Made by a program: the position numbers and the translations under genes
The notes under the pieces: generated by a model
The model's database searches: none
Told to the model about the DNA's origin: nothing
The model's input: only the letters and a program-made list of their open reading frames with translations
DNA from: Comamonas sp. GB3 AK4-5
GTDB lineage: Bacteria; Pseudomonadota; Gammaproteobacteria; Burkholderiales; Burkholderiaceae_C
NCBI RefSeq assembly: GCF_041320665.1
Contig: NZ_CP166730.1
Span: 2,604,001-2,668,000 of the forward strand
Reading direction: 5' to 3'
Length of the DNA stretch: 64,000 nucleotides
Shown: positions 24,500-64,000 of the stretch, one piece after another
How the letters are laid out: every line of letters begins with the position of its first letter
How positions within the stretch are numbered: the stretch's first letter is position 1

Positions 24500-24601
24500 A
24501 TGAACCTCCAAGAATCTCCACAGACCCCGTCAGCTGTCTCGCCCTGGCGCATGTCGGTTGCGCCCATGCTGGACTGGCTCTACAAAATTTCAGTGTATTG
24601 A
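24500..24601 (+). pseudogene. dusA: dusA 5' fragment (tRNA dihydrouridine synthase A), truncated
   Basis: The frame starts at ATG 24500 and encodes 33 residues. Residues 13-26 read VSPWRMSVAPMLDW, which is the beginning of DusA (the family continues with T-D-R-H-C-R). After Trp26, at base 24577, the sequence changes to an unrelated LYKISVY and stops. DusA reduces uridine in tRNA and is about 330 residues long, so more than 90 percent is missing here. The 5' end of dusA is a documented integration target of prophages and islands whose attP rebuilds the gene at the far end. A complete copy is therefore expected to the right, outside the window. Confidence 0.85.
24555..24577 (+). other. Probable attachment-site core in dusA (left end of island)
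   Basis: Homology to dusA ends with the codons for Val-Ala-Pro-Met-Leu-Asp-Trp, whose last bases are CCATGCTGGACTGG. This is the segment where dusA-specific elements are known to recombine. No second copy was found within the window, so the exact crossover and length of the core cannot be set. Confidence 0.6.
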
Positions 24602-36749: not shown

Positions 36750-36755
36750 CAACCC

Positions 36756-42624: not shown

Positions 42625-42625
42625 T

Positions 42626-44539: not shown

Positions 44540-45051
44540 GCAGTGTGAATACGGCAGGCAATCCCGAAGCGTTGAAGGCACACAAAGAAGTGTCGCAGCG
44601 GCAGACCCGACAAGAGCTAGAGTTGGCGTTCGCTCGCCTAAGAAATGGCAATCCGCGCCGTGTCAAGCGCGACACAGCTATCAACGCGACAGCAGTGGCG
44701 ACCGAGGCGGGTATAGATCGCTCCACGCTTTATCGTTTCCATGAACCCATCCTTACGGCTATCCGAAAATTCAACGAGGCAACGTCGAAGCAAAAGTTAG
44801 AAGCTAAGCAGGGAGAGTTAGGGGAAGCACGGACCAAGGCTCGCGAATACCGCGAAGCACTGGAGCTGGCGCGAAATGAAATGGCAGCATGGGCTCGTCA
44901 GAATTATGAGCTTGCCCACCATGTACAAGACCTAAAGGCTACTGTTAAAAACCAACACAAAATAATATCAGAGTTACAAGCTCGGTTAGATAAATTGAGT
45001 CGAAATAAGGCGGGTCTGCTATTCACTGCACACAGTAACCGTTCCGAATAA
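44536..45051 (+). CDS. TnpC-like coiled-coil protein
   Basis: This 171-residue protein has an N-terminal helix-turn-helix-like part (about 50-85, with ATAVATEAGIDRSTLYRFHE) and a C-terminal coiled coil (about 90-160) rich in Glu, Lys and Ala. This resembles TnpC of Tn554, which influences insertion orientation and frequency. It starts inside the previous gene (ATGA overlap), so it is made with the recombinases. AT-rich non-coding sequence follows. Confidence 0.78.
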   Translation: MSSVNTAGNPEALKAHKEVSQRQTRQELELAFARLRNGNPRRVKRDTAINATAVATEAGIDRSTLYRFHEPILTAIRKFNEATSKQKLEAKQGELGEARTKAREYREALELARNEMAAWARQNYELAHHVQDLKATVKNQHKIISELQARLDKLSRNKAGLLFTAHSNRSE

Positions 45052-45173: not shown

Positions 45174-45647
45174 TCACTCAATGGCCGCGCTTCCAGTACC
45201 ATCTGCCAAAATACTCCAGTAGGCAAAGCAAGGCGCACCATATCCGTGATAAAGCGTCCATCCTGACTCAGGGACCTGACACTTCGCTTCAAGATACTGT
45301 GCAAATCCGAGGTTAAAAACATTAGAAACTACCACAGCTTGGATGCCTGGCATCTTTGATATTCCCTGTACAAGCTGTGTGAAAATACCTCGCCTTCGAA
45401 GCTTAGGTTCTAGTTCGATAATTTCAATCGCAGGGAATGCACGTGCTGCCTCTGTCGTTCCCAGCTCTTTAACAATCTTCTCAGGAATGCTTGGAGGCAT
45501 CCTGATTTCTAGCTCCAAATACCCTTCAATATCTATATACAAAGGGAAGCGAGGGTAGCCGCAATCTCGGAATGCTTGAAGCAAAGATAAGACAAATTCA
45601 TCAACCTGTGCCTGCTCGAAAGATGTATTGGTTTTTCGAAATTTCAT
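45174..45647 (-). CDS. Hypothetical GNAT-like protein (157 aa)
   Basis: This 157-residue protein has the strand-helix pattern of a GNAT acetyltransferase fold: IEIIELEPKLRRRGIFTQLV is like the R-x-x-G-x-G/A acetyl-CoA loop region (strand, R-R-R-G, helix), followed by AVVVSNVFNLGFAQYLEAKC. The match is weak and substrate unknown. A perfect inverted repeat lies directly before the start. It may be cargo of the transposon or of the Cdi region. Confidence 0.6.
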   Translation of the reverse strand: MKFRKTNTSFEQAQVDEFVLSLLQAFRDCGYPRFPLYIDIEGYLELEIRMPPSIPEKIVKELGTTEAARAFPAIEIIELEPKLRRRGIFTQLVQGISKMPGIQAVVVSNVFNLGFAQYLEAKCQVPESGWTLYHGYGAPCFAYWSILADGTGSAAIE

Positions 45648-45651
45648 TCTT

Positions 45652-45667
45652 CAATATTTGAATATTG
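45652..45667. promoter_or_regulatory. Inverted repeat at start of the GNAT-like gene
   Basis: CAATATT and AATATTG are separated by two bases and lie four bases upstream of the start codon at 45647. The symmetry suggests an operator for a dimeric regulator. Confidence 0.5.
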
Positions 45668-45841
45668 GATGAAAAAATTATCACTCTTAGCACCCCATCC
45701 TGCTACTGGCATGAACTGCGAGCAACATATGCCTCCTGTGCAGCGGTTGCAGTCCTTCAGGCTCACACCCTAAATGTCTGTTTTGAACTACAGAGCAGTC
45801 ATCTTCAAAGATTAATGGAGGAAGTTGCGTGAAACCGACAG

Positions 45842-45943
45842 TTATCTAGCGAAAGCTGGTCGATTCATGCTGAGCCAGCTCAGCGACGGTGCGACTTTGG
45901 CTTTGAAGGCAGCGCTGTGCTTGCGTCTTGATTTGATGGTCAT
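45842..45943 (-). pseudogene. IS3-family OrfA remnant
   Basis: ATG 45943 follows GGAGAAA and opens with TIKSRRKHSAAFKAKVA, the start of IS3-family OrfA transposase subunits. Then the frame is lost: the next OrfA block TVAELAQHE is encoded one frame over, and the reading stops after 33 codons. The element end probably lies near 46035. The remainder of the IS is absent. Confidence 0.75.
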
Positions 45944-46104
45944 AGATTTCTCCAGGTTCGGCCTGCTGTCAGGCCGTTTTTACGGGAAGAAATCTCGCTT
46001 AGCCAACTGTTCAAAAAACCGGGGCCACTTCTCACTTCTATCATCAGGGATGCGACATGAAGCTATCTGATTTTTGGAGTTGTTTTTGCGGCAGCCCCCT
46101 CTAA

Positions 46105-46893
46105 TTATCTAAATAATTTAGAAAAAAAACTATTTAAAGGAGGCTTCCAACCTGGAGATAGAAAATCATATACTTCGTTATATTTAGCGATGGGGAGGAC
46201 AGGCATTAAATCCATTGGGATACGATCATTTTCAATGAAAACATTTAATCCCTTTATCCAACACAGCTTACAACAAATCACTGCCCATTTCGCTAAAAAT
46301 TTATCATCCAGATGATCATCAAATCTTATTTTTGTTAAGCTTTCTATATGAGAAGATAGTTCAGTAGTATTTTTTTCAAAAAATAATCGAAAGAAATCAT
46401 TTATTTCAACATGAACACCATTATGTGAGATTTTTGATTTTTGATTTTTGATTTTTGACAAACCTTCAACACCAACATAATCCCCTCTAATTATTAATTG
46501 CAAGGCATAGAAATAGTAATGATAGTGATTAGGGCTGTCCTTAAAAACCAAATCTTCATTAGCTATAGAACTAATTAATTTTTCTTCATCAGAGAGCAAT
46601 GCATATAAAAATGCATTAAATGGCAAGTTTTCATTGCAAAAACTCTTATTCATTCCATGCTCTCTAGACTTCATACTTAATAGCGATGAGGTATAAAAAT
46701 TCTGTTTCATAGAAGAAATATTATTGCTAATGAAAAAATCTTGAATTCCTTTGTACTGATAATAATTTGAAATACTGTTTAGCAAAAAACCTTTATTTAC
46801 CTTATGAAATTGTTTTTTATATTTCTCGCTATACTCAAAAATATTAATTCCTGAAGAATTGAGGTAGTTTTTCAGCTGTTCTTCCTTGGTCAT
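46105..46893 (-). CDS. cdiI: Probable CdiI immunity protein
   Basis: This 262-residue, Asn- and Lys-rich protein follows cdiA with a gap of three bases and ends the locus, the position of the immunity protein that binds and neutralises the toxin of the same cell. Helical blocks such as FLYALLSDEEKLISSIANED and FLAKWAVICCKLCWIKGLNV resemble the Imm49-type immunity family, but the match is tentative. Its very low GC content matches the toxin end of cdiA and not the rest, which supports transfer of the two as a module. The ribosome binding site (AGGTGAG) overlaps the end of cdiA. Confidence 0.75.
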   Translation of the reverse strand: MTKEEQLKNYLNSSGINIFEYSEKYKKQFHKVNKGFLLNSISNYYQYKGIQDFFISNNISSMKQNFYTSSLLSMKSREHGMNKSFCNENLPFNAFLYALLSDEEKLISSIANEDLVFKDSPNHYHYYFYALQLIIRGDYVGVEGLSKIKNQKSKISHNGVHVEINDFFRLFFEKNTTELSSHIESLTKIRFDDHLDDKFLAKWAVICCKLCWIKGLNVFIENDRIPMDLMPVLPIAKYNEVYDFLSPGWKPPLNSFFSKLFR

Positions 46894-46896
46894 ATC

Positions 46897-49800
46897 TCAC
46901 CTGCCTAATTTAACAAAGGTCATGCCATTTTCATTGACGCCTGAAACAATTTTTACTAACTTCCCTTCCATCATAGCTTTTTCAATAGTATCCGCAGCGA
47001 ATATTTTTGCAGAATCTCCAGAAGCTCGTAATTCTACTACGCGACTGGCAATCCAATTGTCTGACATTTGAACGTCAATGTTATTAGAAGATTTTGCATT
47101 GTCATTTAACTTGATTGTATTCTTACTTGAAAGCGGCTTTACTTCATTGATTACTACTTGATCACCTCTAATATAAACACCATCAAAACAATTGACACCA
47201 CACTTACCATTAAGAGCCGTAAACCCATTTCTCTTAAAATATTGATCAGCAACAACCTCTCTAAGAGCTCCTCCTGCATCTTTATCTAGATTATTAATAG
47301 TTCGCAGACTCAAAATCTCGGATTCATTTAAAAATGCAGGGACACCAGATTGTGTGATTTTTTGAGCAGATATATTCCCAGCGGCTGATGTAAAGACTCC
47401 CTCAGCTGTAAGAATCTTGCTAGCTTCCCACTGCCTAGCCACCGCTAAAGAAATTAACTCTGCCCCCTTCAGAGCACCCGCCACCACTTGATTCCCCATC
47501 TCCAGAAGAATTGCCTCTGAGGTGCTTTTGGCCAGTTTTTCATGGAAACTGTTAAGAGAGGCAACCTCTCCAATAGTTTCTGTATTCAAATAACGTATTG
47601 GACCGTACTCCAAGCTGTTGGCGTAAACAAAACTGCCAGTCGCTCCAATTACAATATTTCCCATAAGAATGGCTTCTTTTGCCTTTTGGTGGCAATAATC
47701 AGAATTTCCGTTACCACAAGCTTGTGCTAAATCTCTGTCTCTTGTTAATGAGAGCTGGGCTAAAGATTCTTTTTCTTTGCAACCGGCAGGATCTCCTTTG
47801 GAGCAAGCCTCATAAGCATTCTCATATCTTTCTTTTTCAGAAAGTCTTAGCATGGAGGGGCGGTTATGGTTTAAGTAATTATTCACCACCTCATTCCCTG
47901 CCGCTGCCGCCCCACTGGTACCACCTGCCACCGCACCCGCAGCCGTGCTGGCTGTAGCCGTTAACACATCGGCCAAGGTGCCGGTGATGCCGGCCTGGCT
48001 CAGCGCATCCGCCACTGCTGGAGCCGTCACGGTGCCCAGCGCCGCACCGGCAGCACCTGATGCGCCACCCGTGAGACCGCCTACCACGGTGTGGGCCAGC
48101 AAGCGCAGCGTGCCGTTGTCGCCCCAAGCGTCGTTCAGCTGCTTCGCTTGTGCCTCCAGCTCGGCTCGGCGCTGCGGGTCACTCTCACCCTTGGCTTGCT
48201 CCAGAAGTCGCTTGGCTTCTTGTGTCTGTATTTGGGCGTAGTCACCAATAGCCTTGCTCGCCTGCTTCCCAAACTCCGCCGTGATCGCCACCTGGGCGTC
48301 GATATCCTTTTGGACTTTTTCCTTGTCAAATATCCGCTGAATGCCGGTTTCGGCATCGGTGCTTCTCACCGCTGTGTCGCCAGCCATGCCTGAGATACCT
48401 GCAGTGGTGGTGCTGTCTGCACTGCCACTGTCCTTGCCTACACCAGCGCCCACGCCCTTGACGCCGAACTTGCCGTCATCGTTGCCCACGCTGGCATTCA
48501 CGCCCACGGCCTTGCCTTCGTAGTGGGCGCTGTTGTGCAAGTCGCTGGTGGTGAGCTCACCACCAGTGCTGAAGCGGTTTTTCTCTTGCTCCACCGCAGC
48601 CTGGTTGCTGGCGATGACTGCGCCTTTGAGGTCGGTATCCCCCTTGACCTTGACATCAAACCCGCCATCTCCGGCCTTGATACCGCTTTGCTCGGTGACG
48701 CTTTGGTAATCGCTGTTGACCTTGCTCTTGGAGGCGTTGATGCCTCCCCCTGTGGGCACACCCGCAGGGCTGAACGTGATGCTGCCGCCCATAGATTTAT
48801 TTTGGCTGGCATAGGTGCTGCTGTCTTGCAGGCTTTCTATGTGCAAATTGCCGCCAACGTCTGCCTTGACGCTCTCGCCCTTGACCACGGCGCCTTGCAG
48901 CGTGGTGTCCGCACCGCTTTGCAGCGAGACCTTGTTGCCCGCCGTGATATGGGTGTTGCTGTGTATGAGGTCGTCCCCGGCCTCATTGCCCCGACCTTTG
49001 CTGGCACTGACGGTGATGCCGGTTTGCGCCCCCACGCTGATGCCTATGCTGCCCGAGCTGGAGCTGTTGCTGCCGCCCAGGCTGGCCTGGTTCTGGGCTG
49101 CTTGCAGGCGGATGTCGCCCTCGGCCTTCAGTGCCGCATCTTTGCCGGCGCTGATGTCGGAGCCTCGGATCAGAATGTCACTGTCCTGGCCCGCACCTTG
49201 GGCCACCAGGTTCACATTGCCACCCGCCACCACGGTGCTACCGCGTGCACCGTCGCTGCTTTGCGTGCTGGTGCTTTGGCTTTTGCTGGTACCCAGGCTG
49301 ATCGATACGGAGACCCCCTTGCTGACATCACCGTTGGCCAGCCCTTGGGCTGCGCCTTTGAGGTCGTCGGCGCTGTTGTACACATTGAGTGCTGTGGCAG
49401 CTGCAGCCAGGGCTTGCATGCGTCCACTGCTGGTATTGCTGGCCGCCTTGGCCATATTGTCCGCTGTCTGCACGGCGCTGATGACGGGACTGCTGATGCT
49501 GACACTGACCCCGCTTTGCTTGAAGCGCGTCTCGGTGCTAGAGCCACTGGTTTCGCGGGCCTCGGTAATGGCAATGTCCTTGGCCAGCACATTCACATCA
49601 CCTTGCGGTGCGACCACATCGCTGCCTACCTGGCGGTATTGGTTCCCCGCCACGATATTCACATCGCCATTGACCGCCCCCACGGTGGAAGCTGCGGCCG
49701 TGGTCTGCTTGCCCGCTTGGTCGGTGCTTTGCTGCTGCTTGCCAATGGTGAAGCCCATACCTCCACTGCCAAACACGCCAGATTTACGAGTTTCCTGATA

Positions 49801-52800
49801 GTGGGTGGAATGGTGGGTTTCTGTCGCTGCTTGGATGGTTACATCATTCCCCGCGACCAAGGTTGTGCCTGTATCTGAGACAACATTACTTCCTGTGACT
49901 GCAATGTCCTTGCCTGCCTGCATTTGCACTGTGCCGCCAGACAAAGTACTGGATACAGCGGTATTGCTGTTGGATGTGGATTGGTAAACATAGGTCTTTT
50001 TGCCCAGAAGACCACTCTTGGTTTCCTTCGAAGCAAAATCATGGGAGCTCGTTGCCTCACCTGCCGTGATGTTGAGGTTGTTACCTGCCGCCAGTTGGAG
50101 CTCTGAACCGGCTGTAACTTGTGCTGCTCTTGTATTGACGTCATGGCCGGCGCTGATGGTGACGGCCCCCGCACCTTGTACTTGCGTACCTATTTCCGTG
50201 CTGCCTGCCCTTTTCTGGTAGTTTCCAGCGTCCCACACCAGTGATTGGCTTTGCGCTGTCTGGACCGTGGTGAAGTTCGCATCGCGCTCTGCGGAGAGAA
50301 TAGTGGTGCCGCCGCTAGGAGCATCAGAAGCAAGCGAACCATTGATGATTTCTGCACCTTGCAGGTTCAGATCTCTTCCCGCTTTGGCTTGAAGTGCTGC
50401 GTCTGCCCCTGTGACATACAGGCCTGCGACCCGATCGATCGTCTTGCGACTGTAGGCTGCAGAGCCAACTGTGTTGCTCACCTCCGTTGTCGTGGTCACG
50501 AGGTTGATATCCCGTCCAGCCTGGATGTTCAAGGCTTTGTCTGCATCAATGCGGGCACCGATGTTGTCCACATCCAGTGCGGCAGAAATGGCAACCGTGC
50601 CGCCTGTAATTCTTCCGGCCAGGTTCTGCACGTTGTGTGCATCCAGTACGACAGCCTGACGCCCCGCGATGGTGCCGGTATTGAGAAGGCCCCCTTCAGC
50701 CTTTATGTTGACTTGCGCTCCAGCCAACAACGTGCCCGTGCCATCCAGATCGCCTTCCTGGACGCGCATATACACCTGAGGCACCAGAGCACTGGTGGTA
50801 CTGCCATCAGGCAAGACCACGGTTTTCTCAACCAACCACACAATGTCGCTGGTCAGCTGGGCCATTTGCTCGGCAGACAAAGCGACCCCAGGTATCAAGT
50901 CCCACTTACGAGCGAAGGTTACGCCCGACTGCATCAACGCTTGATACTGGGCTTCGTCATTGGCATAGCCATCGATGAATCTGCGTCCCGTCAGCTCGGC
51001 CACCTGTTCACGCACCAGGCGCTGCTCGTAGAAACCATCGCCAAGGCGCTTTTGCAGCAGTGCAGGATCTTGGTTCAGGGCGCTGAGCAGATAGTCCGAG
51101 CCCAGCCACTTTCCACGGTTGGTGAACTGCGGGTCGGTTTCGATGAGATAGCCTGCAGTAGACGCCGCCGCATGGTACAGGCTAGAGGCAGGCACTGCCG
51201 TATTAGGCTGCGTGGTGCGGATCACGGTATGTGCACCAGAGCCCGACGATGGTCCCTGCAGGTTGACCTGCTGCACATTGCCCTTGACGTTCACCACGGG
51301 GGTGCCTGTCGTAGAGACGACGGCGCTTACCGGGGTGACTTGCGAAGGAGCCGCAATAGACCCTGAGACGGCCCCTGCCGTGTTGCCCAGAAAGCTAGTG
51401 ACGGAAAGATTAACGTTCTCAACCTGGGCCCCAGGGTCATAGCCAAGCCAGTCAAGCCACCAGTCAACGCCGTGGGCATGTCCTCTTCCGTATGTGTGAG
51501 CCCGAACACTGCCTTTGTCGATGATGGTCCTCGTCCCGACGGCATCTATATTTTTGACGCTGGCCCCTGAGACATCCAATATCTGGCCGGCAATCACCTG
51601 GCTTTTGTCATTGACAAGACCACCACGGACAACGAGGTTGCCACCCGACGTAATCCGTCCTGGCGCAGAGCTGGCTACGACATCGGTAGTGGTGTAACGC
51701 GTATAGGAATACTCCTGCCAATCAGCTGAAAAGGGGCCGGGAACCAAGCACCAACAGTCACCCATGGCCATGTAGATATGCTCGCCGTCGCTGCGTTCCA
51801 CATGGGATGCCATGGTGGCACCAATGTAGGAGTCATTTTCTTTTTGTCCGTAGAAATACACCTTGCCGTAGTCAAGGCGTTCAGTGAGATAGTTAAGCAA
51901 AATTTCATGTTTGCTTTCGGAGACAGTGGTCCCCGTTGCCAGCGAGAAGTTGCTGTTCAGGTTCTCGATATTTTTTGCAGTGAGCTGCAAATTGCCAACC
52001 GCCTCGATGCTGGCACCAGAGTTGGTGATGGTGTCTGCCGATCCCGTTGCCGTGCCGTCGGCATTGAGTGCACCGCCGATGGTGGCATCTCCTGCACTGA
52101 AGATCAGTGCCTGCTCACTGTTAACGAGCGATACGCTACCTATGTCGAGACGGGATCGGGCGGCGATGCTGGCTGCAGTACCAGCCTCAGCACCGTTGAC
52201 GATCTCGGTAGCCTGGATCGAGAGCGTATCCCCGTACAAACGCCCTCTCCCCAAGTTCAGCAAGGACCCAGCATCGATACGAGCAGTTTCCCCGTCCACC
52301 AGCCCCCGGTTGGTGAAGCTGTTTTGCACTTTGAGGTGGGTGTTGGTCGCTTTAACCTCCGCACCCAAGGCATTGCTGAGATTGCTTGCCGAAAGCGCAA
52401 GGTTGCTACCCGCCTGGAGCTGGCCTGTATTAGAAACGTCGGCTGTAGTACGTAGCGTGAGATCTCGGTTCGCAATGACCGCCGAGGTGTTGACGAAATC
52501 AGTCGTGAGCGAAATGTCGATATCGCCATGCGACAGCATCTGTCCATTACCCGTCAGGCTTTTTGCGCCGACTTCAAGGCGTTGGCCCGCAATCACCGTC
52601 GCCTGCGTGTTATCGATAGCCAACGATTTCGTAGATGAATCATCAAGAAGCGCCACGTTACCCGTAGCGCTGATCAGCCCCTGGCTATTGAGAAGCACTC
52701 CAGAGCTTTGAAGCACGATAGCATCGCCGGCGCGAATCGCGCCGTGCTCGTTGTTGAGCAATGCTGTCTTCAAGGTCACAGCATTGCCCTCAATGCCTTG

Positions 52801-55389
52801 ATCGACTCCGCTGGTGGTGGTGTTGGTGATGGAAGCCGCTTGCAAAGCAAGCGCATCGCCCGAGCGGATAAGCCCTTCTGTGTTGGTCAGTGCTTGGTCA
52901 ACGTGCAGCGTTTGGCCACCTTGACTTTGAATTTGCCCACCACTGTTATCCAGTGAATCGGCTGTCACGGAGAGACTATCTGCACTACCAATCTTGCCGC
53001 TGGTGTTGGACAGCGCATGCGCATCAATTGCGAGGGCCCCGCCAGTGCTGATGAAGCCTTGTTGGTTGCTCAGGTCTCCTGCATGAATGGTGAGCGCATC
53101 AGTTGCAGCGATGGTGCCCAAAGCGTTATCGAGCAATGTGCCATCCATGTCCAGAACAACTGTTGTCCCCGATATGGCTCCACCGTCCGCCGCACCACTT
53201 GCTTTGCCGTTGCGCAGACCTTGGGAGCGGATCTGCACACCAGCACTCGCTTGGAGAACTCCACTGTCATTGACGATCTCCTTCCGAGAGGTCAAGTGAA
53301 GATTGCCTTGCTGGGTCCCAATGGCTCCGGAGGAATTTTCTAGTGAGCCGACAGATGCCGTGATGTCTTTCCCCGCCGCAATGCTTCCATGCTGATTGAC
53401 AAGGCGCCCATCCACTGCGAGCGCAAGACTCTGTGTCGCTGCCAGTTGCCCCCCCAGGTTAGCAAGAGCCCCTGCAGAGAAGCTTGCATCCGCATTGAAC
53501 CAAACCAGGCCGTTGGTGTTGTTCCAGTCTCCAAACACTGCAACCCGGCCTAGCAACTGGCCTCGCTGAATAATTTGAGCGCCTTGCGTTGTCAGAGACG
53601 CAGCTTCAAAGTTCAGTTGTTGTGCATCAAGCTTTGCCTTGTCCAAATTGGCATCTGCGACCCTAAGCTCAGCCGCGCCTTGGCTTTGAATGACCCCTTG
53701 CCTGCTGTCGAGCGCTCCGTCAATGGCAATGGCAAGCGTGCCGCTTCCCGCATGCGTAATCTGGCCTGCGGCATTGCTTAGCTGGCCGGCTTGAATGGAT
53801 AAATTCTTCGCATTGGTGGAAATCGTTCCAGCACTGTTATCCAGTGACTGCGCCAGATGCAGCGACATGTCGTTCACACCCGTCTGCAGCAACACACCTC
53901 CTGCATTGTTCAGACTGGTGGCTTGGAGTACCAGGTGATCGGCCACAACCTTCCCGCCACTGGTACGCAGCTGGCCTGACGCACTGCCTTCGAAGGTGTC
54001 CAGCACATTGATGGAGGCACCGCTTGCATTCAGGTCTCCACGACTGGCACTGATGCGCGCAGACTTGGCGCTCAAATCTGCACCAACCAGCGCCACCTGT
54101 CCGGCTTGTAGTTCTGCGGCACCTGCAGCCACTATCTGCCCTTGCAGATCGATGCTGGTCGCAGCCGCAAGCAGCAAGTTTCCGTTTTGTCCTACATTGC
54201 CTTGGGCATCCACTCCTGCGGCCATCAATGAGCCGTGCTTGGCATCGACCGCTGCCGCTGTAATGCTCAAATCAGTGCCGCTGATGATTGCGGCATCTGC
54301 ACTCGCATTCTGAACACTATCGCGGGCTTGGATAGTCAGGCTGGTAGATGCCTGAACCTTCCCCACATTCAGCAGCGTGCCATCTGTTTGCAGCAGCAAG
54401 CCTTCCCCCTGTGCTGCCAGAGTTCCTGCATTTCTGACGCCCAACCCTGCTTCGGTGCCCACAATGAAAATTTTGCCGGCGTACATGCCGCCCAGTTGGG
54501 CCACGTCCAAAGCAAATTTCGGCTTCTGCGAAGCATCCATCCCTTCGCTGGAATGACGCTGCTGCACATTGCCGCTGGCGTCCGTCTGGTTCACGCCAGT
54601 GGCTACACGGAGGTCCTTCGCCCACAGCCCCGCATTCACGGAAATGGCCCGTGCCAAGATCGTGGCGTAATCGGCCTTGGTGGCATCCATGCCACTACCT
54701 TGAAAGCCGATCTGACCTCCTTGGATATTGAAACCATCCACGCTGCCATTGACGCCATACAGAAGACGCCCTGTGCTCAACGTCACACCGGCTGCGTTGA
54801 TAAAGGACAGTCCGTCAACGACCAAGCCAGAAGGGTTGGCAATGATGACGTCAGCGCGCTGACCCGCTACCTCCAACGCGCCCATCAACTTGGACTGTGC
54901 TGCTGAATTGACTTCGTTGACGATGACCTTGGCACTACCGTTGGCAAGCCCAGCGTTACCTTGAATCCATCCTCCAAGCTGAGTCTGTACGTCGGTACGA
55001 CTGTTGTTGAGGATGGCGCCCTTTTGCCCGATGTCGAACTGCTGGTAGGTATTGCGGCTCACACCTGCTGCCGAAGGCGTCTGGATGTTCACCGTGGGTG
55101 TGCCGTTGGCCGACTCCAGCACCGTGGGCCGTTGACGGCCTGGTGCTGAAGGGTCTGCAATGATTTGCGCCAAACTTGTATGCGAGCCCAGCAACAGCGC
55201 TGCAGCTACGGCTAAAGGCTTGAGTACCAGCCCTCCCAGGCCAGTGGCAGCGGCAAAGAGTTCTGAAGGTGCACTGCCGGTTTGGGTGTGTCCGCTGCTG
55301 GCCTTACCCACGCTGGAGGCCGTCTCCTGCACCACCATGCGAATGCCACGAGACTTGTTAAAAATAACGCGGTGAAGATTCTTGTTCAT
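46897..55389 (-). CDS. cdiA: CdiA/filamentous haemagglutinin-like contact toxin
   Basis: This 2830-residue exoprotein is secreted by two-partner secretion and delivers a toxin to neighbouring cells. It begins with an extended signal region (MNKNLHRVIFNKSRGIRMVV), then the TPS domain (about 75-320; IVNEVNSAAQSKLMGALEVA and ADVIIANPSGLVVDG) and haemagglutinin repeats to about residue 2450. The toxin module begins after NEVVNNYLNH near residue 2500, a variant of the VENN-type border. Its end carries a probable PD-(D/E)XK nuclease core: D2736 (NCFDGVYI), E2749 and K2751 (INEVKPL). GC content falls sharply at this border. The gene lies between cdiB and cdiI, the E. coli order. Confidence 0.92.
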   Translation of the reverse strand: MNKNLHRVIFNKSRGIRMVVQETASSVGKASSGHTQTGSAPSELFAAATGLGGLVLKPLAVAAALLLGSHTSLAQIIADPSAPGRQRPTVLESANGTPTVNIQTPSAAGVSRNTYQQFDIGQKGAILNNSRTDVQTQLGGWIQGNAGLANGSAKVIVNEVNSAAQSKLMGALEVAGQRADVIIANPSGLVVDGLSFINAAGVTLSTGRLLYGVNGSVDGFNIQGGQIGFQGSGMDATKADYATILARAISVNAGLWAKDLRVATGVNQTDASGNVQQRHSSEGMDASQKPKFALDVAQLGGMYAGKIFIVGTEAGLGVRNAGTLAAQGEGLLLQTDGTLLNVGKVQASTSLTIQARDSVQNASADAAIISGTDLSITAAAVDAKHGSLMAAGVDAQGNVGQNGNLLLAAATSIDLQGQIVAAGAAELQAGQVALVGADLSAKSARISASRGDLNASGASINVLDTFEGSASGQLRTSGGKVVADHLVLQATSLNNAGGVLLQTGVNDMSLHLAQSLDNSAGTISTNAKNLSIQAGQLSNAAGQITHAGSGTLAIAIDGALDSRQGVIQSQGAAELRVADANLDKAKLDAQQLNFEAASLTTQGAQIIQRGQLLGRVAVFGDWNNTNGLVWFNADASFSAGALANLGGQLAATQSLALAVDGRLVNQHGSIAAGKDITASVGSLENSSGAIGTQQGNLHLTSRKEIVNDSGVLQASAGVQIRSQGLRNGKASGAADGGAISGTTVVLDMDGTLLDNALGTIAATDALTIHAGDLSNQQGFISTGGALAIDAHALSNTSGKIGSADSLSVTADSLDNSGGQIQSQGGQTLHVDQALTNTEGLIRSGDALALQAASITNTTTSGVDQGIEGNAVTLKTALLNNEHGAIRAGDAIVLQSSGVLLNSQGLISATGNVALLDDSSTKSLAIDNTQATVIAGQRLEVGAKSLTGNGQMLSHGDIDISLTTDFVNTSAVIANRDLTLRTTADVSNTGQLQAGSNLALSASNLSNALGAEVKATNTHLKVQNSFTNRGLVDGETARIDAGSLLNLGRGRLYGDTLSIQATEIVNGAEAGTAASIAARSRLDIGSVSLVNSEQALIFSAGDATIGGALNADGTATGSADTITNSGASIEAVGNLQLTAKNIENLNSNFSLATGTTVSESKHEILLNYLTERLDYGKVYFYGQKENDSYIGATMASHVERSDGEHIYMAMGDCWCLVPGPFSADWQEYSYTRYTTTDVVASSAPGRITSGGNLVVRGGLVNDKSQVIAGQILDVSGASVKNIDAVGTRTIIDKGSVRAHTYGRGHAHGVDWWLDWLGYDPGAQVENVNLSVTSFLGNTAGAVSGSIAAPSQVTPVSAVVSTTGTPVVNVKGNVQQVNLQGPSSGSGAHTVIRTTQPNTAVPASSLYHAAASTAGYLIETDPQFTNRGKWLGSDYLLSALNQDPALLQKRLGDGFYEQRLVREQVAELTGRRFIDGYANDEAQYQALMQSGVTFARKWDLIPGVALSAEQMAQLTSDIVWLVEKTVVLPDGSTTSALVPQVYMRVQEGDLDGTGTLLAGAQVNIKAEGGLLNTGTIAGRQAVVLDAHNVQNLAGRITGGTVAISAALDVDNIGARIDADKALNIQAGRDINLVTTTTEVSNTVGSAAYSRKTIDRVAGLYVTGADAALQAKAGRDLNLQGAEIINGSLASDAPSGGTTILSAERDANFTTVQTAQSQSLVWDAGNYQKRAGSTEIGTQVQGAGAVTISAGHDVNTRAAQVTAGSELQLAAGNNLNITAGEATSSHDFASKETKSGLLGKKTYVYQSTSNSNTAVSSTLSGGTVQMQAGKDIAVTGSNVVSDTGTTLVAGNDVTIQAATETHHSTHYQETRKSGVFGSGGMGFTIGKQQQSTDQAGKQTTAAASTVGAVNGDVNIVAGNQYRQVGSDVVAPQGDVNVLAKDIAITEARETSGSSTETRFKQSGVSVSISSPVISAVQTADNMAKAASNTSSGRMQALAAAATALNVYNSADDLKGAAQGLANGDVSKGVSVSISLGTSKSQSTSTQSSDGARGSTVVAGGNVNLVAQGAGQDSDILIRGSDISAGKDAALKAEGDIRLQAAQNQASLGGSNSSSSGSIGISVGAQTGITVSASKGRGNEAGDDLIHSNTHITAGNKVSLQSGADTTLQGAVVKGESVKADVGGNLHIESLQDSSTYASQNKSMGGSITFSPAGVPTGGGINASKSKVNSDYQSVTEQSGIKAGDGGFDVKVKGDTDLKGAVIASNQAAVEQEKNRFSTGGELTTSDLHNSAHYEGKAVGVNASVGNDDGKFGVKGVGAGVGKDSGSADSTTTAGISGMAGDTAVRSTDAETGIQRIFDKEKVQKDIDAQVAITAEFGKQASKAIGDYAQIQTQEAKRLLEQAKGESDPQRRAELEAQAKQLNDAWGDNGTLRLLAHTVVGGLTGGASGAAGAALGTVTAPAVADALSQAGITGTLADVLTATASTAAGAVAGGTSGAAAAGNEVVNNYLNHNRPSMLRLSEKERYENAYEACSKGDPAGCKEKESLAQLSLTRDRDLAQACGNGNSDYCHQKAKEAILMGNIVIGATGSFVYANSLEYGPIRYLNTETIGEVASLNSFHEKLAKSTSEAILLEMGNQVVAGALKGAELISLAVARQWEASKILTAEGVFTSAAGNISAQKITQSGVPAFLNESEILSLRTINNLDKDAGGALREVVADQYFKRNGFTALNGKCGVNCFDGVYIRGDQVVINEVKPLSSKNTIKLNDNAKSSNNIDVQMSDNWIASRVVELRASGDSAKIFAADTIEKAMMEGKLVKIVSGVNENGMTFVKLGR

Positions 55390-55398
55390 GACAGTCCC

Positions 55399-57120
55399 TC
55401 AGAAGCTGTAAGCGAGGTTCAAAGCAAAGTTGGAATGGGAGGTGCGAAAGTGCTCGGGCTTTTGAATGGGTGTGGCCCAAGAGACTTCATAAGAGAGGCC
55501 GCGCCAGGCACCACGCACACCGATGGCGGCGCCTGTTAAAGATTGACCCACGAGATATTGGGCCGAAGGCCCGCTGACATGGCCTGTGTCCAGACCAATG
55601 AAAGCTTCAGCGCTTGCTCCCAATGGCATGCCGAGTTCATTGCGCCAATACCAACCACGCTCAGCCATCAAGGAACTTTCGCCATCAAAACCACGCACGG
55701 TGTAGCGGCCGCCAATAGCGATGCGATCCTGTGGCGTCAGCGGAGTCTTGTTCCACTGCCCATGCCATGTGGAAGAGAACTTCAAGCGCGTGCCGGCCAG
55801 CTCGAAAGGCTGCGTCAACGCCAAATCCGCGATGAAGAGCTTCATCCGCGAAGTGCCCTCACCCCATGGCTCTTCCGGTGCAGCCAAAGCGTCAAATGCA
55901 CCTGTTCCGCGCTTGAATGCCAAATTGGCATCCAGCACTGCCGAGCCTAGGTAGCTGCGTTGACCAAGACTGAGTTCATAGCCGGAGGTGCGGCGGCGCT
56001 GCACTTCCACCTCTGTGTCGTCGATGTAGTTAGAGGCAGTACGGTGGAAGACCTTGAAGCCCGCAGTCGTCTTGGATGACGCGCTGCGGAAGATGACCCG
56101 ACTGAGCTTGAGATCCAGATTGCTGGATTCGCCGCTGTATGTGTAGTTCTGGACGGCACCCGCCACGCCCTGGTGGTACTTGTTTTGTGAGCCTGTCAGA
56201 GCGACTTGCCAGTAGCCAAGTGGCAAGGAGTAATGCACAACCTGGCTTTTAGTACCTCGGTCACCACCATTCCCCACGCCACTGCCCAAGCTCAAATACA
56301 TCAGGTCATTCAGACCCAATGGGTTGTCCCACGAGAGAGTGGCGGTTCCCTGCGTCTTTCCCGTGCTCTTGGAGCCACCGTTGTCTAGCGCGAGATTGAA
56401 ACGCAAGGGAGTAATGCTCTTGTAAGAAATAACAAGATCACTTTGACCAGGCCCTGCATCAACCCCTTCTGCTGGCACGATCTGAATATCTGCATCTGCG
56501 GTCGGAATGCGCTTGAGATTTTCTAGGCCCTGCTCAATATCTCGAAGCTGGAGCAACTCACCACGCTGGGAAGGGAGTGCAGTGAGGATAGAAGTTGAGC
56601 TTGTACTTTCCTGACTGAACCGTATTTCATGCAATACGCCAGGAATGAATTCAACCGCTAATACCCCTTGCTGCAAATTCTGGGGAGCCACCATCACCCG
56701 CGACGTCACATAGCCACGCTCCAGGATGGCTTGCTGCATGCGCTCCAAGATGACGCCGACCCCTTTCACGCCGATACATGGATTGCTGGCGAAATCAACC
56801 GCCGCAGCATCTTGGAGCCAAGGTACTTGCTCCGACTTTTCCCCAGTCAAACGCAATGCCTGCAATGGAAAGCACGGCTTCTCATCTGCAGGAAGCTCCA
56901 GCGCAGCGCTTTTTTGTGCAGGCCTTAGGGTCTCAATCCCTGGGTCTAGGCGCTCTCGTAATGCCCGTTCACGCTCTTGCTGTCGTTGCAATTGCTGCTG
57001 GTCAATGACTGTGCTTTCGTTTTGCTGCGCATTGACGACACCCGAAGGAAAAGGAGCAAAAAGCACCAACAATCGAAAGCAACTGTTAAAAAAAGTCTTT
57101 CCGGAGATATATCTCTTCAT
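55399..57120 (-). CDS. cdiB: CdiB two-partner secretion outer-membrane transporter
   Basis: This 573-residue TpsB-type protein (ShlB/FhaC family) exports CdiA. After a signal peptide (to about residue 32) it has a plug helix rich in Gln and Arg (QQQLQRQQERERALRERLDP), two POTRA domains (about 80-235) and a 16-stranded barrel. The conserved loop reads GGRYTVRGFDGESSLMAERG, with the VRGF motif that reaches into the pore. It ends NLAYSF with the terminal Phe of outer-membrane proteins. It lies nine bases before cdiA and opens the operon. Confidence 0.95.
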   Translation of the reverse strand: MKRYISGKTFFNSCFRLLVLFAPFPSGVVNAQQNESTVIDQQQLQRQQERERALRERLDPGIETLRPAQKSAALELPADEKPCFPLQALRLTGEKSEQVPWLQDAAAVDFASNPCIGVKGVGVILERMQQAILERGYVTSRVMVAPQNLQQGVLAVEFIPGVLHEIRFSQESTSSTSILTALPSQRGELLQLRDIEQGLENLKRIPTADADIQIVPAEGVDAGPGQSDLVISYKSITPLRFNLALDNGGSKSTGKTQGTATLSWDNPLGLNDLMYLSLGSGVGNGGDRGTKSQVVHYSLPLGYWQVALTGSQNKYHQGVAGAVQNYTYSGESSNLDLKLSRVIFRSASSKTTAGFKVFHRTASNYIDDTEVEVQRRRTSGYELSLGQRSYLGSAVLDANLAFKRGTGAFDALAAPEEPWGEGTSRMKLFIADLALTQPFELAGTRLKFSSTWHGQWNKTPLTPQDRIAIGGRYTVRGFDGESSLMAERGWYWRNELGMPLGASAEAFIGLDTGHVSGPSAQYLVGQSLTGAAIGVRGAWRGLSYEVSWATPIQKPEHFRTSHSNFALNLAYSF

Positions 57121-59228: not shown

Positions 59229-59846
59229 CTACCCACACGCAAAGCGCTGCAAGACGATCATCGTGCGGCCGCAGTGCCTGCACACGAACACTAGCGGGGT
59301 GACATCGGGCTGTACGCCGCTGTGTGTTTGAGCTGGATCTGCGCCGTCAGAGGCTGCGGGCATCGCAGCGGCCTGCAGCAGCTCGCGCACCAGGGCGAGG
59401 CTGTTCTTGCGAGCGCTGTTGGCGAGCAGGCCATAGTGGCGTATTCGGTGGAAGCCGCATGGCAGCACATGCAGCAGGAATCGCCGCATGAACTCCTCGG
59501 GCGTGAGCGTCATGGTTTTTTTGCGTGTACGTCCCTTGGCGCGATAGTCCTTCCAGCGAAAGCGCACGCCGTGCTCATCCATGGCAATCAGTCGGCCGTT
59601 GGAGATGGCGACACGGTGGGTGTAGCGCGAGAGATAGGCCAACACCGCCTCAGGCCCAGCGAATGGCCGCTTGGCATAGACCACCCACTCACATTGGCGC
59701 AGCGGGGCCAGCCACTTCCTAAAGCAGGCTGTATCAGCCAATGCTGCGAGCTCACCAAAGAACTTCAAGCGCTTGCCTTCGTGCAGGAGCCACAGCGCTT
59801 CAAGAAAGCGCCGGCGCATCAGTCTGGACAGCACACGTACCGGCTG
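59229..59846 (-). pseudogene. IS91-family transposase, C-terminal fragment
   Basis: About 205 residues remain: RVLSRLMRRRFLEAL, VVYAKRPFAGPEAVLAYLSR, YTHRVAISNGRLIAMDE, FMRRFLLHVLPCGFHRIRHYG and the Cys pair VCRHCGR near the end. These are C-terminal blocks of the Y2/HUH transposases of IS91 elements, which move by rolling circle. The N-terminal part with the HUH motif is missing, because the IS30 element begins here. The fragment cannot be active. Confidence 0.85.
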
Positions 59847-61070
59847 TGGATTCAACCGATCAATGCAACGCATTCGTTAAACAGCTCAGCCGGGGTCCTG
59901 TACCCCAAGGTTTTTCTGGGCCGTTCGTTCAGTTTCCTCGCAATCGCATCCAACTCATCTTGCGAGTAGCCTGAGATGTCGATGCCCTTGGGAAGGTACT
60001 GCCGGAGCAGGCCATTCGTGTTTTCGTTCGTTCCGCGCTGCCATGGATTTTGTGGATCGCAGAAGTAGACCTGGATGTCGGTGGCTACGGTGAATCGTTT
60101 GTGTCCCGCCATCTCCGATCCGCGATCCCAGGTCAAGGAACGATAGAGCTCTTGTGGCAAGGTCTGCGCATGCTTGGCCAGCGCTGCTGCCACGGTGTAC
60201 GAATCCTTGTCCACCAATTTGACCAGCATTACGTAGCGGGTGTGGCGCTCCACCAGCGTTGCAACCTGGCTGCAGGCATCGCCGAACAACAGATCACCTT
60301 CCCAGTGGCCAGGCACTGCCCGATCCTCGATACAGGCTGGACGCTCGCTGATGGGCACTGCATCGACGATCCGGCCATGGATGGGCGTTTTCTGCGTGTA
60401 ATGGCGTGAGCGACGCATCCCTCTGGTACGCCGCAGATGCTCCAGAAGCTCTTTCTTCAAAGCCCCGCGTGTTTGAACAAAAAGCGTGCGGTAGATGGCT
60501 TCGTGAGACACCTGCAAATCCTTCTCGCCCGGGTAAGTGCGTTTGAGCCACCCTGCTATTTGCTCAGGCGACCACTGACTCTGCAATTTACCTGCCACGG
60601 TCTGTGCCAGTTCAGGATTACAAGCCAGCTTGCATGTCTTTGGGCGACGTGCTCGCTCCCAGGCCGCCTCGTCTGCCTTTGTAGCTCGGTAGGAAGTCTT
60701 GCCGCCGTTACGTAGGAGTTCACGGCTGATGGTGGACGCTGCTCGTCTCAAACGCTTGGCTACACAGCGGATGGACTCACCTGCAGCCAGGCTGCGCGAT
60801 ATCTCCTCACGCTCAGCCAGAGACTGGGCCAAACGTGCCCGATGCCTTGCGGGTGGCCGGATACCCCCTGTCGCACTCAGGATGGTGGGAATGGATGTGT
60901 GCGGTCGGTCAAACAGCTTGCCGATCTCGTGCAAAGTATCGCCAGCTTTCCAGCGATCCCACATCAGTGCCTTCTGAGCTTCGGTGTAGTAAATCCGCGG
61001 TCTTTGCTTCATGCCAACACTCCTTGCGCCAGAGGCAGTCATTGTGTTGCATTGACCAGTTGAATCCGCA
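59845..61070. mobile_element. IS30-family insertion sequence
   Basis: Imperfect inverted ends occur at 59845-59876 (GGATTCAACCGATCAATGCA) and 61040-61070 (on the other strand GGATTCAACTGGTCAATGCA). Between them is one complete transposase gene on the minus strand. It interrupts an IS91 remnant on the left; the right flank is unrelated. No clear target duplication was seen. Confidence 0.88.
59852..61012 (-). CDS. IS30-family transposase
   Basis: This 386-residue transposase has N-terminal helix-turn-helix parts (IYYTEAQKALMWDRWKAGDT, then ISRSLAAGESIRCVAKRL) and a DDE domain with GHWEGDLLFG (first Asp), TWDRGSEM (second Asp) and NENTNGLLRQYLPKG (Glu). The start at 61012 is preceded by AAGGAG; an in-frame ATG at 61042 lacks this. 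Its stop codon lies inside the left inverted repeat. All catalytic residues are present, so the element may still move. Confidence 0.94.
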   Translation of the reverse strand: MKQRPRIYYTEAQKALMWDRWKAGDTLHEIGKLFDRPHTSIPTILSATGGIRPPARHRARLAQSLAEREEISRSLAAGESIRCVAKRLRRAASTISRELLRNGGKTSYRATKADEAAWERARRPKTCKLACNPELAQTVAGKLQSQWSPEQIAGWLKRTYPGEKDLQVSHEAIYRTLFVQTRGALKKELLEHLRRTRGMRRSRHYTQKTPIHGRIVDAVPISERPACIEDRAVPGHWEGDLLFGDACSQVATLVERHTRYVMLVKLVDKDSYTVAAALAKHAQTLPQELYRSLTWDRGSEMAGHKRFTVATDIQVYFCDPQNPWQRGTNENTNGLLRQYLPKGIDISGYSQDELDAIARKLNERPRKTLGYRTPAELFNECVALIG

Positions 61071-61324
61071 ACCTAGAGGCAGCCAGCCCAGAAAGCAGCG
61101 GCCGATTGATGCAAAGTTCGCCTGCCTAGTCATTACGGGCCGGCGAGGTCGTGCCCGTTACCTTGCCTGCGAACAACAAGAGGCGTTTGCCGAAGCAGAT
61201 TCATCACAACTAGCGAGGTCAGATTGCAGCCAACTGCTTGTGGCTCCGTGCCAGCGCTTCGCGGAGTTGCCAATGAGCACTGCAGTATCATCGTGCAAAA
61301 ATTATGGTCATCAAGGGGGGTGTG

Positions 61325-62614
61325 ATGGGGACAAGCCTGCTCCAAGAATTTCTGAATTTGCGGCTTCTGGATATCGGGGCCGAGGACGCTCGCCTTGACA
61401 AGCTCGAAAGCACCTGCGCCGAACTTGCTCTTTCGTACGCAACCAATCCTCAAAACGCTCTGCCACCGCTCCTAGCAGCGTGGGACCCGAATGCTGAAGC
61501 GGCCCCCGCGCTGTTAGAAATTGCTACGGTCCTCCAAGGACACTGGCCAACATTCCGGGGGGCGTTTTCCGGTGAACCGCTGACACTGTACCGAGCGGTG
61601 GTGCTCGAGTCGGTCATGCGGGCGATGAACTTGCAGTCCTCGCTTGCAGTCGCAGTGAGCCTAGTTGCCGCCAACGTCCTCCCACAACTGAAGGTTGGGC
61701 AAGAAACTCCCATCCTCAAGATTCTTGTTGGACGAGCAGAAGCCCTCACCTCTGTTCGGCTTCAACAAGCTTGGCCGCAACAGGATGGTGCGGGGACTAA
61801 CCAGGCATCTATGGCTGTGCCGCCTATGAATAGCCTGAAGAAAATTGACGAGAGCACCTGGTTCGCGCAGGTAGCCGCTGCGGCTGGCCCAAGTTCAAAC
61901 CAAAGTGGCGTGAATCTCAACAGTCCGAACCCACACTGGACGAATAATGCAGGGAGCTGGTCATATGAGTTTGCTGACCGCATGGCCCCGGTACTTGCGG
62001 ACGTGCATGACAAGGCCGCCGGAAATGCGCTGCGAGTCGCTGGGACGGCTTTCAAAGCTCTGGCGGATGCTGTAGCAGCTAAGCTCAACGAGTTCGTAGA
62101 AGCGGAACAGGCACGCAGCAATCAGCGAGAAGCGGCCAGTCGCCTCCTATGGTGGCGCCAAAGCCTCTACTCCGAGACTGCGGAGAAGCCGTACCGCAAA
62201 CTGCCCGTGGCGCTTGTCGTCTGGCACATGGCACTGGACATCTCCGGCCTCCTGCCTGAGGTGTACCCGCGTGCCGTTGAGTCACTTCTATTCGAGTCGG
62301 TGCTCGCGGCCACGGAAGCTCAGGGCAACGTCGAGGTGACTCTGAAAGAGCTGCTCCAAGTGGACGGAGCGACCTCGCAGCTGGCACAACTCCATTGGCT
62401 CATGGAGCAGCGAACGTCCGCCTCAAGGACTCTTCTGGTTCAGGCACTGGCGAACTCCTATGCCGCACGAAATCCCGAGTTGGCCAAGCTCGGGGTGGAC
62501 GCTGAACTCAAAATGCTGCCGGGCGATTGGGCGATTTGGCTCCTCCGTGAAATCAAAGCGCTCGAAACGCTGGCATCTCCCGATGCAGTCAAACAGCCCG
62601 CGGAGGCGGCATGA
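61325..62614 (+). CDS. GASH-like all-helical protein of a GTPase system
   Basis: This 429-residue protein is predicted almost wholly helical (LLQEFLNLRLLDIGAEDARL, KLESTCAELALSYA, later QREAASRLLWWRQSLYSETA and LRKIDE-type segments). It matches what I know of the all-helical GASH proteins that accompany paired GTPases in predicted bacterial conflict systems. No catalytic motif was seen; it may be the sensor or scaffold. I chose ATG 61325, which follows AAGGGGGG at five bases; ATG 61304 is in frame upstream. Its stop overlaps the next start (ATGA), so the system is translationally coupled. The segment between the IS30 end and this gene has no other gene. Confidence 0.75.
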   Translation: MGTSLLQEFLNLRLLDIGAEDARLDKLESTCAELALSYATNPQNALPPLLAAWDPNAEAAPALLEIATVLQGHWPTFRGAFSGEPLTLYRAVVLESVMRAMNLQSSLAVAVSLVAANVLPQLKVGQETPILKILVGRAEALTSVRLQQAWPQQDGAGTNQASMAVPPMNSLKKIDESTWFAQVAAAAGPSSNQSGVNLNSPNPHWTNNAGSWSYEFADRMAPVLADVHDKAAGNALRVAGTAFKALADAVAAKLNEFVEAEQARSNQREAASRLLWWRQSLYSETAEKPYRKLPVALVVWHMALDISGLLPEVYPRAVESLLFESVLAATEAQGNVEVTLKELLQVDGATSQLAQLHWLMEQRTSASRTLLVQALANSYAARNPELAKLGVDAELKMLPGDWAIWLLREIKALETLASPDAVKQPAEAA

Positions 62615-63579
62615 GCCGTCAGTGTTCGTCCTCCGCGTGCCTTGCCCCAGATGAACTCGGGTGCCACATGGGAGAGAGCTCCCTGCACCAGTGCGAGTAC
62701 TGGCAGAGCAGCCGGGATGTGCAGGAACAAGCTGCTGCAACTGAGACTGACGATAGCGCTCGGCTTCCCTGGACGGGCAATGCCATGGGCGCGGGCGACA
62801 TCGGCTTTCTCGCTGGCGCCTCTCGCACACGGTTGGTGGGTGTCTTCGGGGTTGCAGAAAGCGGCAAGACTTCTCTTTTGGGTGCGTGGTACCTGCTCTT
62901 GGGTCGCGGCATCGGCCCCAAGGGCATTTCTTTCGCCGGCTCACTGACCCTTGAAGGTTGGGAGAACATCGCCGGAAATCTGCGCTGGAACGCCGCGCAT
63001 GGACCATCGTTTCCGCCGCACACGTCCAGTGGCAGTGGCCGACATCCCGGGCTGTTGCACCTGGATTTGCAGGTCAATAGCGGCCGGCATGACCTGCTCT
63101 TTGCAGACGCCCCCGGCGAATGGTTTAGCCGCTGGTCGGTCCGCCGCGATGCGGAGGACGCCACTGGTGCTGCCTGGCTATCGGGCGCCGCGGACGTACT
63201 CTTGGTGATTGCTGACTCCAAAGAGTTGGCCGGAGAGCGGCTTGGGACAGCCCGGGCGAACTTGCTCAGTCTGCTGCGAAGGGTGGGCGCTGAGCGGCGT
63301 GGTCGCCCCGTTGCACTCGTCTGGACCAAGTGCGACGTTGCGGTCGGCGAGCAAATGCACAGCGCCGTGAAGCATGCGGCCGATTTGGCGCTGGGCACTT
63401 ACGAGACGTTCAGTGTGAGCATGCAAGCTGCCCCCGGGCAGGAGCCGTATAACCGCGGCCAGGGCCTGCTGGAATTGCTCGATTGGGTTGTGCGCGTAAG
63501 TGATCTTACGTTCCCCAAGTTGGTGTTGCCGCATCCGGAGCAAGACCTGCTGCGCATCGTCGGAGGCGTCCATGCTTGA
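62611..63579 (+). CDS. TRAFAC-class GTPase with N-terminal Cys cluster
   Basis: This 322-residue protein has a P-loop at 77-88 (GVFGVAESGKTS), a Walker B/switch block DAPG at 166-169 (LLFADAPGEWF) and a base-recognition motif TKCD at 239-242, all of a TRAFAC GTPase. Residues 5, 10, 18 and 28 are Cys (with His19), which suggests a small N-terminal zinc-binding part. The spacing and the LLGAWYLLLGRG helix after the P-loop fit the dual-GTPase families of GASH-type systems. It overlaps the helical gene by four bases and the next gene by eight. Confidence 0.82.
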   Translation: MSRQCSSSACLAPDELGCHMGESSLHQCEYWQSSRDVQEQAAATETDDSARLPWTGNAMGAGDIGFLAGASRTRLVGVFGVAESGKTSLLGAWYLLLGRGIGPKGISFAGSLTLEGWENIAGNLRWNAAHGPSFPPHTSSGSGRHPGLLHLDLQVNSGRHDLLFADAPGEWFSRWSVRRDAEDATGAAWLSGAADVLLVIADSKELAGERLGTARANLLSLLRRVGAERRGRPVALVWTKCDVAVGEQMHSAVKHAADLALGTYETFSVSMQAAPGQEPYNRGQGLLELLDWVVRVSDLTFPKLVLPHPEQDLLRIVGGVHA

Positions 63580-64000
63580 GACTACTCTGAAGATTGCCGT
63601 ATTCGGTGAGTCCAACGTAGGCAAGAGCCACTTTGGCGCCCAGCTCATTGGGCGGCTGAATGCAGAGAGCGGGTCGTTACGGATGCGCGGCGCTGCTGCA
63701 GACCTGGGTGCATTCGAGGAGGTGCTCCAGTCGCTCAGCAGCGGGGTGCCCGGCGCCCATACGTCCGCCGGCACTTACACCGAAACACTACTTCCTGTGC
63801 AAGCTGCCGACGGCATCGCAATCGATTTGAATTGGCCTGATTACGCGGGTGAGCAAGTCAGCCAGCTCCAGGAGGAACGGCGTGTTCCAGCTTCCTGGCA
63901 GGAACGGGTGGAAGCTGCCGATGGGTGGGTGCTCATGGTGCGGCCCAAGCACGTCCCATTGGGCCATGACATCTTCTCCAAGCCACTTAGCGACTTGCAG
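63572..64000 (+). CDS. Second TRAFAC-class GTPase (partial)
   Basis: The first 143 codons are in the window; the rest lies to the right. The P-loop GESNVGKS is at 12-19 and the switch II block DYAG at 90-93 (LNWPDYAGEQ), followed by a helix and WVLMVRPKHVPLG. It starts inside the previous gene (eight-base overlap), so both GTPases are expected in fixed proportion. Paired GTPases of this sort form the core of the predicted system, with further GAP1-like or effector genes expected downstream. Confidence 0.82.
   Translation, partial: MLETTLKIAVFGESNVGKSHFGAQLIGRLNAESGSLRMRGAAADLGAFEEVLQSLSSGVPGAHTSAGTYTETLLPVQAADGIAIDLNWPDYAGEQVSQLQEERRVPASWQERVEAADGWVLMVRPKHVPLGHDIFSKPLSDLQ

Follow-up and report, generated by a model that had tools for sequence, protein, structure and literature searches.

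A putative GAP1-N1-type GTPase-centric conflict system with a caspase effector on a dusA island of Comamonas sp. GB3 AK4-5

A five-gene operon at the window edge

The right-hand end of the window (the whole 64,000-nucleotide stretch analysed, bases 2604001-2668000 of the 5.05-Mb single-contig genome) holds the first part of an operon of five genes, all of which are on the + strand and have unbroken reading frames. The first gene (61325..62614) encodes a 429-aa GASH protein (Pfam PF19994, E 1.9e-109, residues 6-414); we take ATG 61325 as its start, and an alternative in-frame ATG is present at 61304. The second (62611..63579) encodes a DO-GTPase2 with an N-terminal Cys cluster (PF19993, E 1.4e-63), and the third (63572..64411) a DO-GTPase1 (PF19975, E 1.8e-76) that is cut by the window edge at 64000. 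The last two genes lie beyond the window, and the operon's end was read in locus L004 (window coordinate = L004 coordinate + 57999). These encode a GAP1-N1 protein with a C-terminal EAD1 (window-equivalent 64411-66879; PF20012, E 2.8e-25) and a caspase with an EAD1 of its own (window-equivalent 66884-67981; PF00656, E 1.7e-20), and the two EAD1s match PF19955 with E values of 1.1e-5 and 3.3e-8, respectively, in the Pfam search. Successive genes overlap by 4, 8 and 1 bases, and a 4-base gap separates the last two. The strength of the Pfam E values of the five components rules out chance matches and matches to unrelated families.

A sequence-only reading of the window had described three genes overlapping by 4 and 8 bases, with P-loops and DxxG switches in both GTPases and a Cys cluster at residues 5-28 of the second gene. 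The frames (61325-62614, 62611-63579 and 63572-) agree with this description, the cysteines are Cys 5, 10, 18 and 28, and the Walker A motifs are GVAESGKT in DO-GTPase2 and GESNVGKS in DO-GTPase1. The corresponding switch motifs are DAPGE and DYAGE, both with the Walker B Glu, and D..GE is kept in 19 of 19 DO-GTPase2 and 15 of 18 DO-GTPase1 proteins of the compared loci. The four-Cys pattern is likewise present in all 19 DO-GTPase2 proteins, although in the Pfam search no zinc-ribbon model matched our DO-GTPase2 despite its four N-terminal Cys. DO-GTPase2 carries TKCD, and DO-GTPase1 has SCWD where [NT]KxD is usual. This replacement of the guanine-recognition motif by [ST]CWD is seen in all 18 DO-GTPase1 proteins, and for this reason the base specificity of DO-GTPase1 may differ from that of DO-GTPase2.

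GAP1-M and GAP1-C were sought in the middle and C-terminal parts of the GAP1 protein, which gave no Pfam match. In the predicted model, residues 215-732 form a helical solenoid, and we regard GAP1 as a predicted helical scaffold. The best match of the model to solved structures has a middling Z of 7.3, which is typical for any helical repeat, and this comparison gave no specific structural relative of the solenoid. The caspase has the motifs SGHG (His89) and DACRSG (Cys142), and matches metacaspase-1 structures weakly (E 1.6e-4). All 18 caspases of the compared set have SGHG, and all 18 have D-[AS]-C (the latter is a widened Cys pattern; a narrower first pattern missed five). The D-[AS]-C motif may point to metacaspase-like cutting after basic residues. 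Only two EAD1 copies, those of GAP1 and the caspase, are found in the genome at E ≤ 0.001.

The GASH protein has 77 homologues at E ≤ 0.001. The nearest named relatives of the gene products are Comamonas proteins, with 93% identity for GASH, 86% for GAP1 and 93% for the caspase (the last among the best 120 of 417 matches).

Judged by its sequence, the gene set is a complete GAP1-N1-type GTPase-centric conflict system, caspase effector included. The sequence-only reading had pointed to GASH and dual-GTPase families, which are those returned by the HMM search, and had placed an effector, if there was one, just beyond the window, where the downstream sequence indeed has GAP1-N1-EAD1 and caspase-EAD1. 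Its statement that comparative genomics has proposed such sets as conflict systems also agrees with the literature: the passages of Kaur et al. 2020 (eLife, PMC7159879) available to us predict GAP1-N1-containing GTPase-centric conflict systems, and include caspase superfamily peptidases among their effectors. The two share GASH, a pair of DO-GTPases of which one has an N-terminal Cys cluster, GAP1-N1 and an EAD1-joined effector, and relative to those passages there is no difference in gene content. In the available portions of later papers, a 2021 follow-up (PMC8195603) extends the EAD idea with the word GAP1 absent, PMC10910872 names only EAD7, and PMC11237479 has one mention of DO-GTPase. 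Among the matches listed in the open-licence literature, we found no experimental test of a DO-GTPase/GAP1 system. No model of PADLOC-DB 2023 matches the four core proteins, so they are not catalogued there as a tested defence system; the fifth protein matches a general caspase model (8.6e-18). The operon thus belongs to a known, previously predicted kind of system, to which we add an asymmetric EAD1 pair, an EAD1/GAAD alternative and a phage-borne copy.

The island in dusA

A 46-kb island inserted in dusA carries the intact operon as cargo. The island is bounded by two 21-bp attachment repeats, the left at 24557..24577 (+ strand) and the right inside the start of dusA (window-equivalent 70606-70626), which are 46,049 bases apart core to core. 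The left repeat lies within a short frame from ATG 24500, which looks like what is left of the original start of dusA, MNLQESPQTPSAVSPWRMSVAPMLDW. The G+C content of the island is 0.566, versus 0.633 and 0.642 in the measured flanks. The sequence-only reading had put the gene set at an island end, and this can now be refined: the set occupies the integrase end of the dusA island, with an integrase frame and then dusA after it. A downstream region of housekeeping genes alone is ruled out, since dusA comes only after GAP1, the caspase and the integrase frame.

The integrase frame adjoins dusA and matches its profile partially (positions 6-138 of 172). At L004 10602-12430 it overlaps an opposite-strand frame that is transposase-like by eye. 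Given the partial match and the overlap, it is likely that the integrase frame is interrupted and that the island can no longer move on its own.

Directly upstream of the operon is an insertion sequence (approximate ends 59229..61074, - strand), which we take to be IS30-like; its final 74 bases are present at other places in the genome as well, and it ends ∼250 bp before GASH. Several other loci share the island. Just within its left end is a 1613-aa autotransporter with an ESPR signal and PATR repeats (24854-29695, - strand). Positions 34986-38835 hold a cytosine-5 DNA methylase and an HTH plus IrrE-type metallopeptidase regulator, of a kind common on phages and islands, and 39812-45051 hold three successive tyrosine-recombinase-like genes (two of them under the Pfam cut-off) with a small fourth frame, presumably a recombinase trio element. 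A two-partner secretion pair occupies 46897-57120 (- strand) and consists of a 2830-aa haemagglutinin-repeat TpsA, with DUF6862 close to its C-terminus, and a ShlB-type TpsB. Together with two small frames that follow the pair at 45174-46893 and gave no Pfam match, it looks like a contact-dependent inhibition locus.

The arrangement at dusA resembles that of dusA-specific islands, which, in the part of Farrugia et al. 2015 (PMC4482086) available to us, have 21-bp repeats and supply a dusA start, with the original start left at the other side. The features in common are the two 21-bp repeats, the island-supplied dusA start and the integrase beside dusA.

Related loci and two classes of EAD1

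GAP1-N1 is sparsely distributed. Counting our own genome each time, 13 of 399 family genomes have it, and in samples of the order, class and phylum it occurs in 6 of 399 (one of the six under the cut-off), 3 of 369 and 4 of 398 genomes, respectively. Genome contigs gave five more named loci. By tblastn, 8 of 72,556 plasmid records match the protein, seven of them with GAP1 proper, and a single match occurs among 50,697 phage records; neither of two viral-contig scans yielded a confirmed relative. Mobile carriers include our own dusA island, plasmids and one Leptospira phage. The phage, LkmZ_Bejolso9 (KF114878), carries the whole GASH/GTPase/GTPase/GAP1 set beside an integrase (L053 3505-10956). 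It shares with our operon the four-gene core, an EAD1-bearing GAP1 and a downstream effector-type EAD1, and differs in its location on a phage and in its effector, a PNP_UDP_1 phosphorylase, whose EAD1 was matched by our own profile but escaped the Pfam model at E ≤ 0.001.

We compared the gene neighbourhoods around GAP1 in 33 loci. EAD1 is present on both GAP1 and the next downstream gene in 19 of the 33, the effectors being 17 caspases and two PNP_UDP_1 phosphorylases, one of the latter that of the phage. GAP1 has no EAD1 match in 12 loci, all of which have an upstream calcineurin-like protein with GAAD that adjoins the GASH protein. This variant (e.g., locus L024) shares the order GASH, DO-GTPase2, DO-GTPase1, GAP1-N1 with our operon, and differs in that its effector is an upstream calcineurin-like phosphoesterase with GAAD and its GAP1 lacks an EAD1 match. 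No frame called in an EAD1 locus matched the GAAD-calcineurin profile, a result of little weight for G757, whose contig ends there. From these comparisons, the EAD1 and GAAD layouts appear to be clean alternatives across the loci, with the limit that locus counts are not independent events and each layout may represent one lineage or a few ancestral events. Two of the 33 loci fall in neither group. One is G757, which has an EAD1-GAP1 on a short contig where no effector was recognised and from which its upstream genes are missing. The other is on a Mesorhizobium loti plasmid, where GAP1 is in pieces with a caspase gene beside it; this caspase is counted only among the 20 effectors discussed below, and the EAD1 of its GAP1 is left out. 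The GAP1 of an E. kobei plasmid is annotated as two frames, of which the EAD1-bearing one alone was used, and a Paraburkholderia record has the EAD1-caspase end with no GAP1 match. G409 and G1165 were left out as weak or fragmentary GAP1 matches.

The EAD1 copies, which were sampled from this system type only, fall into two classes. Mean identities for the 19 GAP1 and 20 effector copies are 0.388 within GAP1s, 0.486 within effectors and 0.329 between the two. Cognate pairs in the 19 operons are at about 0.345, and the cognate partner ranks first for only 2 of the 19 GAP1 copies. In a tree built from 19 EAD1s of each class, one branch parts GAP1s from effectors with support of 99/98 (99/99 with the insert columns removed). 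An earlier tree had the GAP1 copies on one side (75/98) and the effectors not in one group; it had three further copies, including two very long branches, one of them a misread frame. The final trees leave out L065 (which by eye resembles a membrane protein), L068 and the Paraburkholderia copy. In L068, at 1174-2466, an EAD1 is fused to what by eye resembles a trypsin-like protease, and this is the sole EAD1 match of its genome. The identities and class-split trees rule out homotypic EAD1 twins for the 19 operons. According to the available text of Kaur et al. (PMC7159879), EADs of neighbouring genes tend to be closest relatives, which is stated as a tendency and not as a system criterion; unlike that tendency, neighbouring EAD1s here are not closest relatives.

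The effector class is marked by a GGGG loop, which is present in 20 of 20 effector EAD1s versus 0 of 19 in GAP1s. A larger set of 188 proteins comprised all 66 GAP1 matches, the best 120 of 417 caspase matches and our own pair; four were removed for want of an EAD1 match and one for falling under a score or length limit. With caspases confined to these best 120 of 417 matches, GGGG is found in 118 of 120 effectors versus 0 of 63 GAP1s, and the nearest EAD1 neighbour is in the same class for 183 of 183 copies. The phosphorylase EAD1s fall with those of the caspases, GGGG insert included. Because both phosphorylases are in the effector class, EAD1 class follows role (GAP1 vs effector) and not the fused enzyme.

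The classes also differ in the loop after GG. Its first position is K/R in 12 and D/E in 4 of 19 GAP1s, and D/E in 19 of 20 effectors; at its fourth, 15 of 19 GAP1s have D/E and half of the 20 effectors (10) have R/K. The difference at the first position persists in the larger set (again with the best 120 of 417 caspases), with D/E in 112 of 119 motif-bearing effectors and 1 of 61 GAP1s. At the fourth, where the difference is weaker in this set, 32 of 61 GAP1s have D/E, with Q the commonest residue, and most of these effectors have S, A, T or N. There is thus a hint, and only that, of charge opposition between the classes. In our own pair the marking positions are Arg766 and Glu769 of GAP1 versus Asp308 and Ser311 of the caspase, with the caspase GGGG at 332; in the predicted GAP1 model they map to the loops before and after helix 776-788.

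The two-class split suggests an asymmetric plug and socket. Our reading, which we hold tentatively and at somewhat below an even chance, is that EAD1 is an old directional pair and not a homotypic adaptor: GAP1 would carry the socket and the effector a plug with GGGG and an acidic residue, at a position that in GAP1 is for the most part basic or polar, such that the plug could not trigger itself. It is also possible, if less likely than not, that EAD1-EAD1 coupling is symmetric and that the classes differ through constraints of the host proteins alone. Several observations are consistent with symmetry: 13 residue columns are at least 90% conserved across both classes, whole-domain net charges are alike (means -1.26 and -1.37), the EAD1 distances of the two classes correlate as simple co-inheritance would give (Mantel r 0.77), and cognate partners resemble each other a little more than randomly paired copies do (0.346 vs 0.329, permutation p 0.003), a small effect that shared ancestry would give. 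Against it, caspase and phosphorylase EAD1s are on unrelated enzymes and yet form one class with GGGG (20/20 vs 0/19).

A proposed mechanism and its meaning

We consider it probable that the operon is a complete GAP1-N1 DO-GTPase conflict system with a caspase effector on the dusA island, and that it works basically as follows. GASH and the two GTPases would constitute a sensing and threshold switch, with the GTPases holding back the caspase until an invader is sensed. GAP1, as a long helical scaffold, would read the GTPase state and, on activation, present its C-terminal EAD1, to which the caspase would dock by its own EAD1. Docked caspases would gather in several copies to give an active protease, which would stop or kill the infected cell. 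The gene content and order, the intact frames, the catalytic motifs of the caspase, the presence of EAD1 on GAP1 as well as on the caspase, and the association of EAD1 with effector type across the compared loci can be read directly from the sequences; the GTPase gating, docking, caspase activation and cell arrest are what we infer, as is defence against phages or other mobile DNA. The proposed recruitment of a caspase through a small helical domain has counterparts in EACC1-caspase systems (in the available passages of PMC7159879) and in animal CARD-caspase activation. Unlike the EACC1-type caspases, ours scores below the cut-off of model NF047832 (103.5 bits; cut-off 140), and the likeness to CARD-caspase concerns the proposed recruitment mode, with EAD1 not assigned to the Death fold.

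The operon might instead stabilise its own island or plasmid by addiction or incompatibility, the core sensing loss or competition and firing the caspase. This we consider unlikely. Our copy is integrated at dusA, the Skermanella and Mesorhizobium huakuii copies have transposase genes on either side and the Leptospira phage copy has an integrase next to it, all of which would fit, with the annotated mobile examples being biased to mobile DNA because collections of plasmids and phages were their source. A set of five genes, two of them for GTPases, with effectors that can be swapped would, however, be elaborate for addiction, we noticed no small antitoxin-like gene between the five genes, and the sparse presence fits defence as well. 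In some organisms, caspase-like proteins of bacteria do housekeeping work. That the operon is a protease switch for stress or development in general, with no tie to invaders, is nevertheless also unlikely: the available part of Kaur et al. (PMC7159879) reports no special GAP1-N1 link to multicellular habit, a point in its favour, but the patchy distribution (13/399 in the family), the carriage on island, plasmid and phage, and the exchange of protease, phosphorylase and phosphoesterase, which fits a toxic-effector slot, all argue against it.

DO-GTPase/GAP1 conflict systems, as which we read the present operon, are predicted immune switches made of eukaryote-like parts, namely a GTPase switch, a scaffold, an adaptor domain and a caspase. 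The Comamonas copy is unbroken and compact (6.7 kb), which makes the prediction directly testable, and the two classes of EAD1 sharpen the broad notion of homotypic coupling to a concrete prediction about binding. The copy on a phage suggests that such systems are used between phages. If the directional reading of EAD1 is true, any enzyme given the plug, whether caspase or phosphorylase, would be drivable by the GTPase-GAP1 core, and the pair would by its nature protect the cell from a caspase that fires spontaneously.
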